Source of the DNA: Owenia fusiformis
Taxonomy: Eukaryota; Annelida; Polychaeta; Sabellida; Oweniidae
Length of the DNA: 64,000 nt
Reading direction: 5' to 3'
Assembly: GCA_903813345.2 (NCBI GenBank)
Contig: CAIIXF020000004.1
Coordinates: 20,682,477 to 20,746,476, forward strand
Below are positions 1,599 to 40,700 of the stretch, one piece after another (positions within the stretch are counted from its first letter, which is position 1; the number at the start of each line of letters is the position of its first letter). A program made the translations under genes and the position numbers. The notes under the pieces were generated by a model, which was given only the letters and a program-made list of their open reading frames with translations, was not told the DNA's origin and made no database searches.

Positions 1599-2338
1599 GT
1601 TTAGTAGTTTAGTTTAGTTTTATTGTTATTTACAGTGGTAGGTTCAATACAATGCAATAAAATACAACACAAAAGAAAAGTAATAAAAAGCAACCCAGCC
1701 CACTTGGGCTTATCAACCACTAGTGTTAAAAATTACAATTAGATTCATAACAAACAATTTTAAAAATACTAGCATGAATTTCTTAGACACATACATGCAG
1801 TTTAATTCAATTTACATTATAAATGGCATTTCTTCTTTTAAAATAACAAAGTTTAACAACATGAGCAGCTTGCCTAGGCATTTTTTCAAATAAATACTGA
1901 AACTTTTGATCCGTAGTTGATTCTGTTTCTTCAAAAATTTGGTGATTTTGTAAATATGTTTTCCTTATTTCCTTATAAAATGTACAATTAAAAATAAAAT
2001 GTTCCTCATCCTCAATGTTGCCAGATTTACATAAAGTACATTTTCTATTTTCCAATTTTTCATTTCTAAATCTGCCTGTTTCAATTTCCAGTGGTAAAAT
2101 TCCCATACGTAATTGTGCAATTAAAGATCGTTCCAACTTAGATAAATTTAGCAATAAATATGACTCAGTTTTGTATGAGGTTTTGAATTTGACATATGTT
2201 CTTAATTTTGGTTTCTTGTGTACTAAATCATTCCAAGTTGTTTCATATGTAAGCAGTAGTTTCTTTTTGACTTTTTCTATATAACAATACTCTAAATTCT
2301 CAAAATTATCTTGACAATCACATCTATTTAAAATTTTA
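1599..2338 (-). mobile_element. 5'-truncated LINE (non-LTR retrotransposon)
   Basis: The fragment is flanked by the 7-bp direct repeat ATCGATA (1592-1598 and 2339-2345), a target-site duplication. Its 3' end on the minus strand carries AATAAA followed by short TTTAG-type repeats near 1600-1625. It codes for the C-terminal end of a reverse-transcriptase polyprotein and is truncated upstream. It lies within the mariner-like element and is therefore younger. Confidence 0.75.
1807..2154 (-). pseudogene. LINE ORF2 C-terminus (zinc-knuckle tail)
   Basis: A 115-residue frame reads SLIAQLRMGILPLEIETGRFRN, then CTLCKSGNIEDEEHFIFNC. The C-x2-C...H-x4-C pattern with EDEEHFIFNC is the C-terminal domain found after the reverse transcriptase in many animal LINEs, where it contacts nucleic acid. 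The RT and endonuclease domains are missing because the copy is 5'-truncated. Confidence 0.75.
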
Positions 2339-2532
2339 ATCGATAATGTGGTGTAAAGGGTAAAGGGACCTGGGTTAAAGCATAAAAAGGCAAGACTGAA
2401 ATAAAAATGGTGTATTGGGGAGGAAACATTCGTGTTTTGGCTACATGTCCACGCAAAGAATGTCTGAAGATATTGATTGGTTTATCTGTGCTCTTGATAT
2501 ACTTTTGGATACATCTTTTGAGACACCCTGTA

Positions 2533-11900: not shown

Positions 11901-14900
11901 TGTAAGTAGTTGAACGAGATATTACATGTAGCTTGGGAGGTGTTTATATGAGTAGTTGAACGAGATATCACCCGAAGCTTGGGAGGTGTTTGTGTGAGTA
12001 GTTGAATGAGATTGTCACCTGAAGCTTGGGGGATGTTTATGTGAGTAGTTGAACAAGGTATCACCTCAACCTTGGGAGGTGTTTATGTAAGTAGTTGGAC
12101 GAGATATCACCTGAAGCTTGGGAGGTGTTTATGTAAGTAGTTGAACGAGATATTACCTGAAGCCTGGGAGGTGTTTATGTGAGAATTTGACCGAGATATC
12201 ACCTAAAGCTTTGGAGGTGATTATGCTGAATAAATTGGGTGTTAGGCTAAATAAACTCTTACTTTAGTTTGTTTATGTTTATGTTTGTTTATGGAGGTGT
12301 TTCATTTGTAACTAGATGGAATGTCATTTGTAGCAAGCCCTGCCGCTTGTGTGGACAGAAATTGGTTCATTTGTAGCTGGTTGGATTTTGCAACATCACT
12401 TACTTCAAGCTGATCAAGCTTCATTTATAGCTTTTGTGTTAGTTTTAAGTAGCTTCGCATAGCTATAATGAAACGTTAAATGTGGGTAATGTTCATGTTT
12501 ACATATTGACGTTCACATTAATTAGATTTTATATCTAATGCCTCGTGTAAACCTTTACAGTACGTCATCTGAGAGAGGCTTTACATCTCGAGAACATGCT
12601 TAGTGCAAGACCTACGTCCTCCAAAGAGCATCACAACATTAACCCGAAGAATGAAGAAAGTGTACCACGTGTCAGCTTGATCAATAGTGTCGTAAAGGAG
12701 ACGAAGTCGGTGAGTTCTCAATTTCGGTATCATCACATTTGTAAACATGACAACGTCTTTTACATGACATTGCATACTGGGGAAGTCGTAAGAATGAGAT
12801 ATAACAAACATGAGCCCAATTTAGACATGTATATTTAAGTTAAACGTGTTTTACGTCTTTCCAGTTATCATGAGGATATGACATCTATTTTAAAAATAAA
12901 ATAATATGATTTAATATAATTTTTAATTTAATAACCTGTATTTAAACAGAGTTATACAAATCATATAGTCCCTGATCTGGACCCTCTGTAAACAAGTGTT
13001 GTTATCCGGTACTGTCCCATGTAAAATGATTGTACCGTTTGAAAGACTTCCCTCATAAAGAAAACACATCTTATATTAATAGAAACTGGGATGGAAATCA
13101 GAGCAGGGACTAATATCATATACAGTTATATTGGATCAAAACATATTTACAGTTTAGTGACACCTTGTTAATTATAAGAGATCAGATGCATCTATAATGC
13201 TTCATATTCATTTCAGAAATTGACCGACTGCATCAATCACTGGGAGCTGTGTAAGGGTATCGTCAATCTGTACATTGTGGGTGGTCAAGCTGCAGGGGAA
13301 AAGGTAGATCATTGGTCAATCTGATATTATATTCAAATTTAATTTTTGTACCATATGCATCGTGAAACAATTTTCGTATACTACATGTATTACTGATAAA
13401 TGAATACGTCAAGTTTAATGCATCATTAAAATCTGACAACATGAATTATATACAGCTAGACTAACAACAATGCAAAGCGGTAGTTGTTGTATCATATCAA
13501 AGAGTAATGTTCTGGTAAATAGCATTACTACCTTATATCTTGATAAGAAAGGTATAGAACACACCAATATTCATATTACCTTATAACTCAAATGATTTAC
13601 CTTACCTTGTATATTGTTCATGAAAAGTTGTTCCCACATTATTCAAGTGGATGATTTGATTTTGGGAACATTGATTTTGGAAACATTTTGTCAAAATCAG
13701 TTCAATAACTTGAAACTCAGTTTAATATTTGTAGATGATCAAAGCAATGTTGACGATGAACCTTTCTGATAAAAACTTCAATGAATTCCTGTCAATGTTA
13801 ACCTCAATGAGGAATCCAAGCGACTCATTAGTGAACGCTGTCAGGAAGAAGTATCAAGAGGAACGTTCAGAGGAAGTGAAAGTCACCTTAATGTTTACAA
13901 TGACTGCATTAGGCGGTGAAAGATCTGTCAGTAAAGAACTGCGAGCAGCGATAACTAAATCAATGCTAGAGAAAATAGCGAATATCAACAAGGACAACTG
14001 TCAAGCTGATGATAGCGTATTTGATGTTCTAGAAGCCACTGGAAACCTCGCAGATCCGGCGATTATAGATCGTATGATAAAAATAGGAAAAGATTGCATG
14101 AATAAACCCGCTTTGGTAATGGGAACAGTCCACGCCTTGGCAGAAATTTGTTCAGATCAACGTGTCGTTGACTACTACACGTTCTTGATTGAAAATGCAG
14201 TGTGTGACGTAAAACTGACAGTTATTGGGAGCATGAGGGATAAAATAAGTAGCGATATTGTCGAAGGACGGCATGGGTCATGGCCAAGAGAAACATACAA
14301 CAGTCTTGACTTGAGACTGAAGGAAATATATAACGACAACAGCGGAGATTTCCATTGTATACATGATGACATTTTCAAATATTTTAGTGACAAACCCGGA
14401 AAAGATGCCAAAGCATTTTTGGCTACTAACAGCAAATCGAAACGAGGTATTCTCAACCATTATTCATGCTCAGCATGGGGACCGTATGGCTCTCGATATA
14501 CGAGTATACAACCTGAATCTTCCTTTTCAACAGATAATTCGAGGTACCCTGATAACAGACACTGTTTAGCTCATTTTAGACTCGGAATCAGCAGTGCTAA
14601 TGCAAATCTTTACGCAGGGGCTTTCGCTGGCATCAACAGGAAGTATTGTAACTGGAAGATATTTGCCCGAGTCTACGCAAATGCATATGTCCTCGGGAAA
14701 AGCTTCTCGATCGTGTCAGCCCACTTTTACCAGTACAAATATGGAACATCGTTTAGGTTACGAGCTTACTTAAAGATCGGAAGTAAGACTCATGTTGATT
14801 ATACGTACACATATAACGTGCCATCCTACTCACAAACGTGGTCGAAATATTGGCAGTGGGATATAGACATATGGGGTATCAATATGTACGTTGCTTCTTT

Positions 14901-15099
14901 AACTTTGAGGGTTACCATAAAACCGGGTGTACACTTCACAGTGAAAATCAGCCCCTGCTATACGGGATGTGCAGTTTGTGCAACAGTCACCCCCAAGGTT
15001 ACTCTGCAAATATCTGGTGGTGCATCTGCATCTTTAGCGGTAAGTTGTGCAGAAAAGATAAATAGACTAGAAAACGGCAACTCCACGAATAAACATTAG
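8913..15099 (+). CDS. secreted large lipid-transfer protein (vitellogenin-N/MTP family)
   Basis: Eleven exons: 8913-8984, 9083-9182, 9293-9371, 9787-9944, 10326-10449, 10641-10836, 10944-11163, 11381-11488, 12561-12709, 13217-13303, 13735-15099. All junctions are GT-AG and keep phase, giving about 885 aa, close to MTP large subunit (about 890). Residues 1-22 are a signal peptide (MVMIQMILVHLATALLLYGV). Residues 25-330 resemble the vitellogenin N beta-barrel (YTYTSYVYLWGE; KPFRFIQRKDGSIAEVQFQK; GVLSAFQ). From about 400 to 665 follows the helical domain. The C-terminal part (about 666-885) is aromatic- and cysteine-containing, beta-rich sequence ending VTLQISGGASASLA. A furin-type RKRR lies near residue 290. 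The family carries lipid or assembles lipoproteins in the secretory route. Paralogue identity (MTP, apolipophorin, or a lineage-specific form) is not settled. A GTAAGT at 15040 could splice onward; AATAAA at 15088-15093 supports ending here. Confidence 0.8.
11487..12222 (+). repeat. 46-bp minisatellite, 16 units, starting at a 5' splice site
   Basis: Sixteen units of 45-47 bp, consensus ATGTGAGTAGTTGAACGAGA followed by TATCACCTGAAGCTTGGGAG and GTGTTT. The first unit starts with the last two bases of exon 8 plus its donor GTGAGT. About nine units keep GTGAGT or GTAAGT. Units 2-6 and 7-11 match each other unit by unit, so a five-unit block of about 230 bp was duplicated. Confidence 0.95.
15088..15093 (+). 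terminator. AATAAA polyadenylation signal overlapping the CDS end
   Basis: AATAAA falls in the codons just before the TAG stop of the lipid-transfer ORF. If used, cleavage would follow the stop within about 10-30 nt, giving a very short 3' UTR. Confidence 0.35.
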
Positions 15100-24462: not shown

Positions 24463-24498
24463 TATAAAAGACCCTGGTTAGCATTATTCTCATCAGTC
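24463..24498 (+). promoter_or_regulatory. TATA box and initiator of the CqsA-like gene
   Basis: TATAAAAG at 24463-24470 is followed by TCAGTC at 24493-24498, a consensus initiator with its A 32 bp from the TATA start. The ATG is at 24537, so the 5' UTR is about 42 nt. This is a near-ideal animal core promoter. Confidence 0.75.
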
Positions 24499-24536: not shown

Positions 24537-25817
24537 ATGCTATCAAAATCAAAAATATTGATGCGCTGCATCGGGAAATGCAGTAAAACTGCAAAACGTG
24601 AATATATGTACCCGAGTAACACAAGTGCTGATGTGGAACAAATCTGGGACGCAGATTATATGGACAATATCAATATGTTTGACTCGACTCCTGATCTGGA
24701 AAATGGGCAAGGAAAATCCGCACAAACATTTACATTAGACTTTACATCATCCGATCCTCTTGATGTCGCAAAATCAGTGGCAAATGCCGAAAACCGGTCA
24801 GTCATGACGAGCATTGGAAGTGGTAATACCTCTCTGAAATATCGGTTAAACTATGGCCCCGACTCTGCGAGTAGTTTACAATGTGAGGTAGAGGAGAAAT
24901 CAAGTATATGGCTTCAAAGTGAGTGTACCGTAATGACCCCTGTTGGCAAAGATCCCTTAACCACACTAGTAGATAAGTTTCAACAAGCTAAATCACTTCC
25001 TGTTTACATTGACGCTTTGGCTAGACTGAATAATGACATAGCGGGGCATACACAAAACAATTTGATTAATTTTAATCATAACGAAATCGAGTCGTTATTT
25101 TTAAGAATCAAAGAGCATGGGCCGGGTTTGGTCGTTATCCAATCCGTATATGGTAAAACAGGGACAATAGCGCCGTTGGAAAAAATGTGCCAGCTCACAC
25201 GAGAACTGGACTGCACGCTTATTGTCGATGAGACAAACGCTCTAGCTGTTTATGGAGAAGAGGGCGCTGGAAAAGTGGCTGAGCTAGACTTACACGACTT
25301 CATTCCATACAGAATTGCAAGGTTACCTGCGCTTGGGTCAAATTTGGGACTGATTACATGCTTTAAAAGCAATGTTGACACTCTAAGAGAACCACTAAAT
25401 GTTGGCATTGATGAACTAGATAGGTTGTTATTAGCTATAGAGCATGTTAAAGAAAATGCATGGGCGAGAGATTTGCTCCGATCGAAATCAAAGTACTTAA
25501 AAGACAAAATAATCGACATGGGTTATCCAGGGATCCATTTGCACCATCCTAGTCATATATTTGGCTTATGTATTGGGGACACTTCTCGCGTAAACGAGAT
25601 TTCGAACTTTCTTAAATCTTGTGGAGTTAACACAGAGAAACATACTCATCCTTCAGTGCCAGAATACCGTGATTTATTACAGTGGAAGTTGAATGTAACA
25701 AAAAGTACAACTCAACTCAACAATACTGTAGATATTCTAAGAGAAATGTTGGACAAAAGAGTTGCGCGTCCTTGGAACTGGCCAGACGCCTTTAAAAGAC
25801 CAAGACTGTTCACTTAG
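24537..25817 (+). CDS. CqsA-like alpha-oxoamine-synthase-fold protein, probable pseudoenzyme
   Basis: A 426-aa intronless gene. The order of motifs follows fold-type I PLP enzymes of the alpha-oxoamine synthase group and most resembles CqsA, the bacterial autoinducer synthase: LPVYIDALARLNNDIAG (about 155-171), GPGLVVIQSVYGKTGTIAPL (about 199-218), LIVDETNALAVYGEEGAG (about 229-246), then RLPALGSNLGLITC (about 262-275). In active relatives the second Asp-motif is DE-S-H-S, an AHxSLWEG histidine stacks on PLP, and a lysine in SLAKAFxxxxG binds PLP. Here these positions look like Thr233-Asn234, Arg163 and Pro264. Asp231 is kept. The protein thus probably cannot form the PLP Schiff base and may have a structural or regulatory role. 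The N-terminal 50 residues are extra and basic, possibly targeting sequence. It has its own promoter and polyA signal and long intact frame, so it is not a decayed pseudogene. Family call is firm for the fold, moderate for CqsA. Confidence 0.7.
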   Translation: MLSKSKILMRCIGKCSKTAKREYMYPSNTSADVEQIWDADYMDNINMFDSTPDLENGQGKSAQTFTLDFTSSDPLDVAKSVANAENRSVMTSIGSGNTSLKYRLNYGPDSASSLQCEVEEKSSIWLQSECTVMTPVGKDPLTTLVDKFQQAKSLPVYIDALARLNNDIAGHTQNNLINFNHNEIESLFLRIKEHGPGLVVIQSVYGKTGTIAPLEKMCQLTRELDCTLIVDETNALAVYGEEGAGKVAELDLHDFIPYRIARLPALGSNLGLITCFKSNVDTLREPLNVGIDELDRLLLAIEHVKENAWARDLLRSKSKYLKDKIIDMGYPGIHLHHPSHIFGLCIGDTSRVNEISNFLKSCGVNTEKHTHPSVPEYRDLLQWKLNVTKSTTQLNNTVDILREMLDKRVARPWNWPDAFKRPRLFT

Positions 25818-26146: not shown

Positions 26147-26156
26147 AATAAATAAA
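26147..26156 (+). terminator. overlapping AATAAA polyadenylation signals
   Basis: AATAAATAAA lies about 330 bp after the stop of the CqsA-like gene, on its strand, and would define a 3' UTR of about 350 nt. A short frame at 25835-26113 falls within this UTR and looks non-coding. Confidence 0.6.
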
Positions 26157-29007: not shown

Positions 29008-29175
29008 TATATATTTACGTTTGGATAACTACGTCAGGACTGGCAGGCAAGTGGATGCAAGGAATACACGAATAAACCATGTTTACAAGCGCCTACGCAT
29101 TCCAACAACAGATCCAAAACAACCAACACACGAAGTGAATTTGACGGAACGTTTTTCCAAGCACTAGTTACACCA

Positions 29176-31623
29176 ATGTTTTCACTTTCAGTAGTTATAA
29201 CAATCGTTCTTTTCAGACATTATAGACACTACTTTAGAGGAATGTTCAAAGACTTGTCAACCAGCGAAAAACAATGGATCTCTAAGTATCACCTTGAAGC
29301 CAGTCGCGAGGAATGTTTCCAGTCGGGTAAAGACCAATTAGTTTTAATAAACGTTGGGGGACAAGATTTCTCAACATACAAATCTACGTTGAAACGATTC
29401 CCAAACACCAAATTAGCAAACTTAAAAAGAAACGAACAATTTTACAATCATGAAATGAGGAAATACTTTTTCGATCGTGATCCGAGGGTGTTTCAATCAA
29501 TTCTGTGTTACTACCGCACAGGTAAATTGCATCTTCCTCAACACATTTGTGGACCAGCCGTTGAGAAGGAGCTCCAGTTTTGGGGAATCGATGAGTACTC
29601 AATCGAACCCTGTTGTTGGGGTAAATATGCCGGCTATGAAGATGATAAGAGGATCTTGGAGAAGATAGCAACAGTTTTTAACCTCCATGAGGAAATACAT
29701 GTCCCTGTTCCTCCGGAAATATCCAACAGAACAATGTATGGTAAATTTCGAAAGAAAGTCTGGACCTTTTTAGATAATCCATTTTCATCGAAGTCAGCCA
29801 AGGTAGGTCCGCTACTCAATTGATGTTTAAAGTTGGTATTTTTTTAAACAGAATCCTTTTGGAATGTTAACGACACGACATAAAGATGTATTTCTAGAGT
29901 TGCGCAATAACAATTGTATTTACAGGTTTTGGTAATTGCAATTGTCTATTTCAGAGCTGGGCAATGATGATGTCCCTGATGGTCTTAGTCTCAGTAGCAG
30001 TTGCTTGTTTTGACACAGTAGCAGAGTATAGGGTCCCAACAGATAAATCGCCAATAGATATGCCATGGTTCCTGAACACTACAAATTCCAAGATCAACAT
30101 GCTACAGAACACAGAAATGAACCCGATATTACAAATCCTTGATCACACGCTGAACTGTGTGTTCACGCTTGAACTAATCATTCGATTCATCGTATGCCCG
30201 GATAAGGTGGAGTTCTTTAAAAACGTCATGACGATACTAGAGATCATCTGCGTTCTTCCAACATGGCTCGAGCTCTTGATTGTCGCTTCTGGACTAGAAC
30301 GCAATTACGCCATACGTATAACATTCGATCTTCTCCGGTTTATGTTTATATTCAGGGTCTTTAGGATTTATAAACTAGCCAAACATTATATGGGTCTGAA
30401 GATCTTTCTGTTATCGTTGAAGGCATCATGGAAAGAGTTGATGCTGTTGCTTGTGTTTATCGCTCTGGGGATGCTTGTTTTCTCAACACTGATATACCAC
30501 GCCGAAATTTGGCAGGCAGACACATTTGATAATGTCTTTGTAGGCTTTTGGTGGGCAATCGTTACCATGACGACAGTCGGTACGTATCATTGATATATAT
30601 TCAAATATAGATTATATTATCTGTTAAATCATTTCTTGATCTATAACATTATTTATAGTGTTTTTTCATTAGTGCTTTTGATATTATTTGAAATTACTAT
30701 ATTAACCATGCACTGTCACATCGTGGCATTAATGCGCATCTATTTTATTATCAACAACCCCTCTTAACTGTCAATAAATGATTAAAGTTCATTTCAATGT
30801 TTTATTTCCGTCAATAAAACCGAAAAATAAGCAATCAAGAAACTTCAGCGCAATATTATATGCAAATTATATTCATATTGTACACGAAATGTCGAAGTAC
30901 TTTGATTGCATTTGGATTGGCTAATTGATGTTTCTGCCATTTTATCTTCGAAAAAAATTAACGTGCTGAAACTCCTTAAATTACAAGAGGCCATAGGTTT
31001 ATCACATATAAATCAAATAATTATCTGACATATACAAATGTCATTCGTGTACAATATATATGAATATATTCTTTATAATATCTCACTGATGAGGTCTTTT
31101 GATTCCTTAATTATTTTTTAAGTTCTATTGACGAAAATAATATACATGTTTAAAACGGATGTAAAGGCCTGGTTTTCACATCTTCTTTTTAAAATTGTTC
31201 TGAGGTATGGCCATGTCACTTCTTTCAGGGTACGGTGACAAACATCCAACTTCATGGCCAGGATATATAATAGGAGCCTTTTGCGCCCTCTCGGGAATTC
31301 TCGCTACAAGTCTCGCAATACCGATAATTGCCAATAATTTTAATACGTATTATTCGTATGCCCAGATGAAACGAAAGTTAGTAGACCGCAAACCTGAAAA
31401 AGATGGCAGTTGTGAAAGATCCGTTGATCATGAAAATATGTGCGCGCAATCAACATCCGGTTTGGCATCTGCGTCTGACAATAGATCCCGAATTGAAACG
31501 GTGTCTCAGGATACGCCATTTTGTGGATTTTATTTAGATGAAGGTGATAATAGATCTTCAGGCTTTAGCTCATGGTCGGACCCTAGTTTATCAAACCATG
31601 TTAGGGAAACTGCTATTGTCTAG
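29176..31623 (+). CDS. Shaw/Kv3-type voltage-gated potassium channel subunit
   Basis: Three exons, 29176-29802, 29955-30579 and 31229-31623, join in phase to about 548 aa. Residues about 53-165 are the T1 tetramerisation domain with LINVGGQDF, YFFDRDPRVF and YYRTGKLHLP; the zinc site H-x5-C-x20-CC is intact, as in non-Shaker Kv channels, and EPCCW is Shaw-like. Then come S1 (MMMSLMVLVSVAVACF), S2 (FTLELIIRFIVCPDKVEFFK), S3, S4 (RFMFIFRVFRIYKLAKH), S5, the pore (WWAIVTMTTVG, then YGDKHP) and S6 (LAIPIIANNF). Intron 2 splits the first glycine codon of GYG. Oddities: the second S4 arginine position is Phe, and the S6 PVP hinge is AIP. The first ATG lies just before a good acceptor (AG at 29215), so an upstream first exon is possible; Met at 29242 is another start. 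Plasma-membrane channel for repolarisation by family; the changes may make it a modulatory subunit. Confidence 0.9.
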
Positions 31624-37765: not shown

Positions 37766-40700
37766 TTAAATGGCTTGGAACATTATTTCCAGATCATCGT
37801 CGTCTGTTAAGTAATCTTCGAGGATTCTATTTATGCCTTCTTTAGATGTATCAGACACTGGTTTGTAGCATCCTAAACAAAAAATACCCATCATAAAATA
37901 CATGTAGATAAGACAGTTGCTTGTGATATCATAATGAGGATAAAATATGTCAGACGATGCGTTGTGATATCCTTAAGAGTACGCCTGACAATATCATATC
38001 ATGAGGAATAGGCATATCGAACAACCGTGTAATATTTATAATTAAATGTAACAAATATATCAACGTAAGTTTCAAATTCAAGTGGCTGATAATGCCTTCA
38101 GCAAAGCCACTACAAGTGTATAATGACTGTTTATGTACTTTATAATGTTTTTGAAAAATAAATTCTATGAATAAAAAAAATAAGTCTAACAATGTATTCA
38201 ATACTAAATATAAAAATAGTTAAGTATAAAAACGTTAAAAACATCAGTATACACGTCTGATATAGATATTCATAAGATATTTATTACACTTACATAATCA
38301 AAATGAGTTGTCAAACAACATTTATAGGCGTAGCCAGGGGGCGCGATGGGTGCGATGGCACCCCAACCCCCCCCCCCCCAAAAAAAAAAGAAAAAAATAT
38401 ATATATATAACCATGAGATAGAGGAAGAAAAGAGCTTTAAAATGCATTTTATTAGAAGCTTCTAGCCTTATTTCCGAAGGAAGTTGCATCAATTTTTGTA
38501 AAATTTAAGATAAATCTTAATTTTTGGCTTGTTTATGCCACAATCACACCCCCTTGACTGAAATCCGACATTTTTGGGCGATCGCACCCCCTCTGACCGA
38601 AAGCTGGTTTCGCCCCTGGTATTTATACTAACGCACACACTACTTCATAAAAACTGATTGAATTTATTAAACAATATAGTTTATGAATAAAATATGACCA
38701 ATAGTGCTTACCATAAGGTTAGTTTGGCAATAAGTGACATGTAGCACGCAAAACAAAGCAATGAGATTAATATATTCGACCTTACTCTCATCAATACTAA
38801 GATTGACAAATATCTTTACACACCTTTCCTCATGGTGAGATCAACGCTGACACCATTTGCAGTAAGGACTCCATTTTTAATTTCATGATTTCCCGTAAAG
38901 AAGTGTTTGCTGTTAAACTTCAATGGCTTGTTGGTTGGCATGCTGGCCTTGGTAAAAGCGGAGGAACAGATATCTCCTGAAAGAGAACAGCATAGCATAA
39001 GTGATAAACAGCGAAATCTTAAGCGTGTTATTAGAATTCATGACTTGAAATGGAAATTTGTATTTACCTACAAAACCACCTGCGACGACGGACTTATCAT
39101 AGGCAAGGTCAAAATCAAGATGGTTGTTGTACTTCATAACGGCGACTCTGCCAAATTCAGGGCTCTCAATCCACAAATACCTGAAAAAATCAATCAAGTA
39201 TGAAAAATGAAAACAAATGGTGATGTGTTTCTGGCATATGCTTGGCTCCTTTTGGTTTTTATCCTCATGGCACTCATGCTTGCATATTTCCTTCTCACCT
39301 GTTTTCGATTTCTGCCTTTACATTCCCGAAAGTATGTTTAGACGTATGCGACTTCAACCATGAAAGCTTTGTTTCTCGACCAGTCTCGTGATCCAGAATG
39401 GAGGTGCCAGAGATGGTCGCAATGATGTTGATGCTTTGGCTTTGAATATACACCGTATCTACGAACAGCAAGTCTTTACTGGATGTAGACGCCTCAACAG
39501 ATACAAATGTTGCCAACACCTTCGTACCTTAAAGAGAGACAATGTGAACAGCGAATTATTTCCTTTCCCGAAAATGCACCTTCTTATTGTGGACGAAGTT
39601 CACTAGATTTGAGAAGCAATGTATTATTTATTATTTTTCGATGTTATGGTGAATATTTTTTAGATTCGAGAAGAGTTCAGTGTAATTATTGTACATTACG
39701 TGAACATCTTACCTAAAAATTCCTCTTGAATTTCACTTGAGCTTCTTCATGAGGAAACATCGAATATACTTGTCTATCTCTATTGAGTGATCGTAAACCT
39801 GGAGTCAACTTTTATCTTTTTTTAGAAATGATTTCATAAATTCCTACTTACGACTAAGTTTATCATCAAAGAACAGATATGTTTTCCCAGGGTCGCCATA
39901 TGCGTCAAAGCAGATACGGTCACCGGAAGGTAGCACGCAAGAAACATGAGGGTCGCCACGCACAGTAGTTGTTTGGAACGGATTAATAGTAGTCGCAGGA
40001 GGGTTAGTAATAAAAGGTGCTTGTGTAGTTATAATCACAGGAGGGTTGGTAATAATAGGTGCTTGTGTAGTGGTAACACCAGCCGGGTTAACTGTATTGC
40101 CAGCACCTACATTCACCAGACATAATGAGTTTAAAATATCCTTAGTAGTTATTAGAATATGTAAAAATTTATCCGATGGATACTAAATATATATGGGGAC
40201 AACAGCACAAGATTATTTTGCTATGCGCCACTAAAATCATATCCGATCCATATATAGAGATTATCCTATATGAGGTTCAGGATATTATCCCGAGGTCAAT
40301 ATAATATATCTGCCCGAGGGCCGTAGGTCAGACATACATGGACTCACAGAGTGTATGGGCAAGCATATCTGCTCCAAGAATCTATAGGTAGTATTGTAAA
40401 TTATTCAAGGAAGGCAGGGTCACTGTTGAAGATCATCTACAATCTGGTTTTATGAAGAGCTTGCAGACAGAGAAAAACACTAAAATTAAGGTGATTTGAG
40501 ATGATGCAATTTATGAAGAGAGAACTATCACATTGCGGAAATTAGCAAACAGGGGCGACACGGGATATGGAACGTACAGTTCAAAGAAAAGTTGACAATG
40601 ACCTGAAGATGTGTTTGATCTGCTTGAAATAGGTACCGAGGAAAGATTGAAATACCCAGCTTATCTGTTTTAATTTTCATACGTAACAATTTAACCGACC

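Follow-up and report, generated by a model that had tools for sequence, protein, structure and literature searches.

The closest described relatives of the protein reported here are CqsA, LqsA and JqsA, the bacterial synthases of alpha-hydroxyketone autoinducers (NCBIfam NF005526; PDB 2wk8 and 3hqt). Animal ALAS and GCAT (KBL), both mitochondrial, belong to the same superfamily of alpha-oxoamine synthases, as does SPT.

A lysine-less member of this superfamily is already known from the SPT branch. According to a review of SPT (PMC6148460), SPT1 lacks the PLP lysine and the equivalents of His159, His234, Asp231 and Arg390, is an ER membrane protein and forms a heterodimer with a catalytically live SPT2, which is unstable without it. 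The same review (PMC6148460) calls the SPT1/LCB1 heterodimer unique among alpha-oxoamine synthases and assigns Arg378 of SPT to the carboxylate of the substrate.

The window, which is the whole stretch of 64,000 nucleotides of Owenia fusiformis DNA that was analysed, contains a gene whose product is alike to CqsA, LqsA and JqsA over about 350 residues, these being its best database match. Its C-terminal W-P tail is also found in many bacterial CqsA rows. It differs from bacterial CqsA in the absence of the PLP lysine, in a basic N-terminus, in changes at 19 of 47 near-invariant columns and, together with its animal paralogues, in a two-residue insertion that occurs in none of 48 bacterial rows. 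SPTLC1/LCB1 and the window protein belong to one superfamily, both lack the lysine, both histidines and an arginine, going by the review (PMC6148460) for SPT1, and each has a lysine-bearing paralogue in the same cell, of which there are five in the case of the window protein. They differ in that SPT1 lies on the SPT branch and the window protein probably on the CqsA branch, that the aspartate absent from SPT1 in that same source (PMC6148460) is kept in the window protein, and that the F-S loop, deleted from the window protein, is present (GYCFSASLPP) in the SPTLC1-like gene of Owenia. What we class as new is such a lysine-less relative of the alpha-oxoamine synthases on the CqsA branch, in an animal with lysine-bearing members too; the design itself is known from SPT1. 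The reading favoured here, at a probability of roughly one half, is that of a derived paralogue of an animal CqsA-like family in which PLP chemistry has been lost while the protein has been retained.

A CqsA-like gene and its paralogues

The gene forms an intron-free frame of 426 uninterrupted codons at 24537-25817 on the forward strand. A sequence-only reading had described it as intact and intronless, which the single-exon frame from ATG to TAG confirms, and the motifs cited in that reading (including LIVDE...GEEGAG and LITC) are found in the translation. The gene and its flanks contain the following features:

24463..24470, + strand: TATAAAAG, a TATA-like box upstream of the coding sequence, read from the sequence
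24493..24498, + strand: TCAGTC, Inr-like, about 32 nt downstream of where the TATA box begins, read from the sequence
24537..25817, + strand: single-exon coding sequence, ATG to TAG, for the 426-aa CqsA-like protein that lacks the lysine
24537..24599, + strand: basic N-terminus, residues 1-21, MLSKSKILMRCIGKCSKTAKR, with zero acidic residues and resembling a mitochondrial presequence
26147..26156, + strand: AATAAATAAA, resembling a polyadenylation signal, read from the sequence

The three flanking strings, which we assume to be TATA, Inr and polyadenylation motifs from their likeness to the consensus, would bracket an ordinary animal transcription unit. The gene had also been credited with a full core promoter; TATA- and Inr-like strings do occur upstream, although similar ones can also turn up by chance in such A+T-rich DNA. 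TATA-like strings are also not peculiar to the window gene, as TATAAAAC is found upstream of the paralogue L005 and ATATAAAGG upstream of the paralogue L004 (160 bases each).

Among NCBIfam models, NF005526 (alpha-hydroxyketone autoinducer synthase) is the top match of the window protein (E 8e-36, 123 bits), followed by ALAS (E 4.5e-20, 72 bits) and then by BioF and SPT. CqsA also leads among PDB chains (2wk8, E 2e-22), with ALAS next at 5e-12, and Pfam gives a weak match to Aminotran_1_2 only (E 0.00019). Together with a best other match in the same genome at E 1.4e-50, these scores lie far outside what chance would give and bear out the earlier assignment as CqsA-like. Judged from such matches and from the trees described below, and with AU tests that are indecisive when outgroups are included, the gene is by descent a CqsA-type alpha-oxoamine synthase, closer to this type than to ALAS, KBL, BioF or SPT. 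The equivalog cut-off of NF005526, set at 428 bits, is reached neither by the window protein (123 bits) nor by its five paralogues (275-290 bits).

A protein search of the genome returned six long matches and one short one, corresponding to the window gene and five others. The five paralogues lie on four other contigs, namely C8 (L002), C1 (L003), C3 (L004 and L005) and C12 (L006). They are 28-30% identical to the window protein, and the matches start at query residues 66-117 and end at residues 395-422. When the genome was searched with NF005526, 11 matches were obtained, in which the five paralogues scored 275-290 bits and the window gene 123. NF005526 was likewise the best family for the three of the five that were scanned singly (277-290 bits), and a profile of four paralogues compared with solved structures found CqsA as its best match (E 2.8e-63). 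A WPD tail is present in four paralogues, and in L006 it is present only in another frame. All six CqsA-like genes have a single-exon coding frame, each long match lying in one frame, so that intronlessness is uninformative about the window gene in particular.

The five paralogues resemble the window protein in their intronless frames, in letters specific to the animal proteins and in the insertion, but differ from it in a kept active site: twelve checked active-site letters, including the PLP lysine, are kept in all five. The idea that a whole family had been turned into an animal pseudoenzyme is thereby contradicted, as only the window gene has lost these letters. The lysine-bearing paralogues are arguably more interesting than the dead copy, as they may be active aminoketone synthases.

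One paralogue, L006, changes frame at about 2525-2610 (C12 near 7,556,040), near its C-terminus, with the usual tail in the other frame. This would be either an assembly error or a damaged copy, and hence either the family loses members or the assembly contains errors.

Bacterial contamination was considered and rejected, all six CqsA-like genes lying inside contigs of 31.9-62.2 Mb. The window gene sits inside a contig of 31.9 Mb in an assembly of 498.26 Mb, with potassium-channel exons a few kb away.

Placement among alpha-oxoamine synthases

The main tree comprised 62 rows, for which 80 bacterial loci were thinned by identity to 44 and joined by four plasmid loci; SPTLC1 was left out and the SPTLC2-like row carried X for missing exons. 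In this tree and in the column comparisons, L006 was cut at locus base 2500, and some columns scored as at least four of five paralogues lack L006. The window protein groups with the five paralogues (100/97), and the six animal proteins are sister to 48 bacterial CqsA rows (97/89), with ALAS, KBL/GCAT, BioF, SPT and a Legionella homologue on the other side of the tree. A 51-row tree without outgroups, from which L032, L075 and L086 were also left out, groups the six at 100/100 and places the window protein in a two-row set (98/87), in which the partner, judged by path length, is L002.

These supports need care because the branch of the window protein is very long (4.45 in the 62-row tree and 6.75 in the 51-row tree) and a warning about the meeting of long branches was issued by the program. 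In AU tests, the window protein could be placed either outside the group of CqsA-like proteins (p 0.483) or with the bacteria (p 0.489) without rejection, and a clade of the five paralogues without the window protein was not rejected either (p 0.218).

Shared letters supply a second line of comparison. The window protein and its paralogues have 21 letters in common that are each found in at least four of the five paralogues and in at most two of the 48 bacterial rows, and they share a two-residue insertion where all 48 bacterial rows have a gap. In two columns the window protein carries a letter that no paralogue has but that 80% or more of the bacterial rows share, a criterion that is not symmetrical with the one used for the 21 letters. 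A profile of the animal family gives the window protein 213 bits and one of bacterial CqsA 148 bits. Given these comparisons, we take the window protein to be a derived, fast-evolving paralogue of an animal CqsA-like family.

The altered active site

Near-invariant columns were defined as those in which at least 95% of 53 lysine-bearing relatives (five animal and 48 bacterial) have one letter. There are 47 such columns, and the window protein keeps 28 of them and has lost 19. The positions of the classical PLP site and its surroundings are:

25023..25025, + strand: codon of Arg163, aligned with His in 53 of 53 relatives
25227..25232, + strand: codons of Asp231-Glu232, one kept part of the classical PLP site by alignment
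25236..25238, + strand: codon of Asn234, aligned with His in 53 of 53 relatives
25323..25328, + strand: Leu263-Pro264, site of the lost PLP lysine, in place of which some alignments have Pro264 and others a gap
25389..25409, + strand: residues 285-291 (EPLNVGI), about where the F-S loop is deleted; a seven-column gap, the loop being present in 53 of 53 relatives
25680..25682, + strand: codon of Gln382, aligned with Arg in 53 of 53 relatives

In the alpha-oxoamine synthase fold, the histidine at the position of Arg163 stacks on PLP and the position of Asp231 pairs with the PLP ring nitrogen. By our own reading, the position of Gln382 would be the equivalent of the substrate-carboxylate arginine of SPT, Arg378. 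The sequence-only reading had aligned the stacking histidine with Arg163 and the second histidine with Asn234, and both replacements stand, as does the numbering of Arg163, Asn234 and Pro264. Its alignment of the lysine with Pro264 stands in part. The lysine is indeed absent, as the nearest lysines of the window protein are residues 246 and 277 and none occurs at 247-276, but Pro264 is opposite the lysine column in one alignment and a gap is found there in two others. One of these two, in which the F-S loop is a gap as well, included 34 of the 80 bacterial loci. Since all 53 compared relatives bear the PLP lysine, its loss is most simply placed on the branch of the window protein.

The lysine is one of many losses. 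In the numbering of L003, the lost columns include S135, N140, H162 (now Arg163), D202 (Gln), S206 (Gly), H234 (Asn), T260 (Ile), K265 (gap), F293 (gap), S294 (gap) and R390 (Gln382), each of which is kept by all five paralogues; S233 (Thr) is lost as well. Ten columns were classed as belonging to the active site (S135, N140, H162, S206, D231, H234, T260, K265, S294 and R390) by roles that are in part presumed. With this set, which was picked after viewing the alignment, the window protein has lost nine of ten active-site columns against 10 of 37 others (Fisher p 0.0005, for a post hoc set). When only the five positions of the SPT review are counted (K, H, D, H and R), four of five are lost against 15 of 42, which is not significant (p 0.14). 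Taken as a whole, the pattern of replaced and deleted residues makes it very probable that the window protein is catalytically dead as a PLP enzyme.

Maintenance, possible role and origin

No stop or frameshift, as marks of a pseudogene, was found across the 426 codons of the window gene. In a simulation of neutral drift that started from the L003 coding sequence (substitutions only, without indels, 200 runs), the first stop appeared at 95% identity on average and none of the 200 runs was stop-free at 32% identity, where the mean was 16 stops and the minimum 7. As no neutral run stayed stop-free, selection acted on the frame over most of its past; the simulation is compatible with function having been lost recently. 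Despite an overall identity of 28-30% to the paralogues, 28 of the 47 near-invariant columns are kept, and the best-kept stretch, residues 181-240, is identical to L002 at 30 of 60 positions. The open frame and the conserved columns thus make it likely that the gene is kept and functional.

Alternatively, the gene could be on its way out, as a redundant paralogue with a decayed active site in which a stop or frameshift is yet to come. The very long branch would also fit relaxed constraint, 19 of the 47 near-invariant columns are lost, and the family includes a member, L006, that switches frame near its C-terminus. However, a neutral copy at about 30% identity is expected to hold many stops (0 of 200 runs being stop-free, with substitutions only), near-invariant columns outside the active site are kept in 27 of 37 cases against one of ten inside it (classes drawn post hoc), and the C-terminal W-P tail and all 426 open codons are intact. 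On balance, decay appears unlikely.

If the protein is kept without PLP chemistry, as favoured here, the analogy with SPT1 suggests, tentatively, a partner or regulator of the paralogues. The window protein would fold as its relatives do, enter mitochondria and act through binding, and its likeliest partner would be a lysine-bearing paralogue, which it could stabilise or regulate as a subunit, in the manner of LCB1/SPTLC1 for LCB2/SPTLC2. Seven basic residues and one acidic residue are found among the first 30 of the window protein, and over the same length the N-termini of the six proteins have 4-7 basic residues and 1-2 acidic ones (start codons chosen by the analyst), which fits mitochondrial import, as for ALAS and GCAT. 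In this fold, the F-S loop reaches the PLP phosphate site of the neighbouring subunit. If this role of the loop holds, the window protein, in which the loop is deleted, would have none to offer a partner, and it would act as a scaffold, a regulator or a dominant inhibitor and not as half of an active site. The role of a partner is weakened by the same losses, as the dimer surface may be impaired where the F-S loop and the lysine segment are missing, and in our view the F-S loop is a defining trait of a pseudo-subunit of the SPTLC1/LCB1 type. A second loss of the lysine, on the CqsA branch and in the presence of lysine-bearing sister genes, would allow a direct test of why a PLP-free copy is kept.

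Perhaps the fold was instead kept in a stand-alone binding protein (for acyl-CoA, lipid or another protein) that works independently of the lysine-bearing paralogues. The best-kept residues, 181-240, precede the lost lysine and F-S loop, though they hold the lost S206 and H234 sites, and the D231-E232 pair is kept. Yet nothing positive speaks for any ligand, and the known lysine-less member of the superfamily, SPT1, is described as a heterodimer partner in the review (PMC6148460), which leaves this an improbable account of the gene. Far less credible is an enzyme that still works by another mechanism or with PLP on another lysine: Asp231 is kept, but no lysine occurs at 247-276, and the losses extend to both histidines, the conserved serine and threonine of the site, the arginine at 382 and the F-S loop.

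Ordinary genes of the superfamily are found elsewhere in the genome as multi-exon genes, with ALAS on C5, two GCAT genes on C6, and SPTLC2-like and SPTLC1-like genes on C8 and C1, respectively, the names being our own reading of matches and motifs. Animal ALAS and GCAT (KBL) thus have the superfamily in common with the window protein but are multi-exon and form a separate clade. That the window gene is one of these ordinary genes, for instance a copy of SPTLC1, is very improbable, as the ALAS, GCAT and SPT loci lie elsewhere and are split into exons, model scores favour CqsA, and a union with the animal SPTLC2-like row was rejected in the tree without SPTLC1 (AU, p 0.011), although all are alpha-oxoamine synthases and SPT1 likewise lacks the lysine (PMC6148460). 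The sequence-only reading had named an ordinary animal ALAS/SPT clade as the placement that would speak against it, and the exon-split genes and the rejected union both point away from that clade. As a separate observation, the SPTLC1-like gene (L101, C1:25334000-25341500, minus strand) reads FIDES where the review (PMC6148460) has the aspartate of SPT1 missing.

The search among eukaryotes was one of the Owenia fusiformis genome (G000) alone. Bacterial genome contigs yielded at least 522 confirmed loci; the best 80 of these, spread over several phyla, show 32-38% identity to L003. Among 245 genomes from a first phylum and 398 from a second, two and two genomes reach E 1e-70 (loci L102-L105), and none of them exceeds the 270 bits scored by G002, the genome that holds L019. 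Plasmids gave 575 records with L003 as query (best 34.7% identity among the matches listed, 40 of 575) and 246 with the window protein (best 26.6% among the matches listed, 15 of 246), and two scans of viral contigs found no relatives. No close bacterial relative or recent donor is thus seen among the best 80 of the 522 loci, the plasmid matches listed or the viral contigs, and in the 62-row tree the animal clade stands beside, not within, the sampled bacterial CqsA rows. A horizontal origin of the animal CqsA-like family, as inferred earlier, is neither shown nor excluded by these comparisons, and the six intronless coding frames fit an old bacterial gene or retrocopying equally well. In the open-licence literature, no report of CqsA or of an autoinducer synthase in animals was found by title or by the start of the abstract, and such a report may be published elsewhere. 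In the main text of a compendium of metazoan HGT (PMC13342648), the words CqsA, autoinducer, aminolevulinate, oxononanoate, pyridoxal and quorum are all absent.

A bolder and doubtful extension would be a CqsA-type pathway of the animal's own, with at most five live synthases (one perhaps damaged) making acyl-aminoketones or hydroxyketones in mitochondria, derived from an old acquisition or from an unsampled ancient lineage, and with a dedicated lysine-less subunit. If true, one enzyme superfamily would have arrived at the SPTLC1 design twice, the second time independently in this subunit. With the paralogues themselves comes the question whether compounds of the class used as signals by Vibrio and Legionella are also made by some animals.

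Several further features were noted beside this subject. On the Agrobacterium plasmid pAtCG920 (L014), hemA (ALAS) lies directly 5' of a gene annotated as an autoinducer-binding-domain protein. The potassium-channel exons near the window gene occupy 29029-31623 (+) of the window and belong to a voltage-gated channel (matches to BTB_2 and Ion_trans), the pore signature of which appears to be split between a frame ending at 30593 and one starting at 31204. A 454-aa frame at 13735-15099 (+) resembles, on visual inspection, a portion of a lipid transfer protein of the vitellogenin-like kind and has no Pfam match at E 0.01. At 1807-2481 (-), a frame ends in a Cys/His cluster, CTLCKSGNIEDEEHFIFNC, which we take to resemble the tail of non-LTR retrotransposon proteins, and at 39844-40182 (-) an exon-like frame contains Thr/Pro repeats followed by GDPHV...CFDAYG, a string similar to that with which a von Willebrand type D domain begins.
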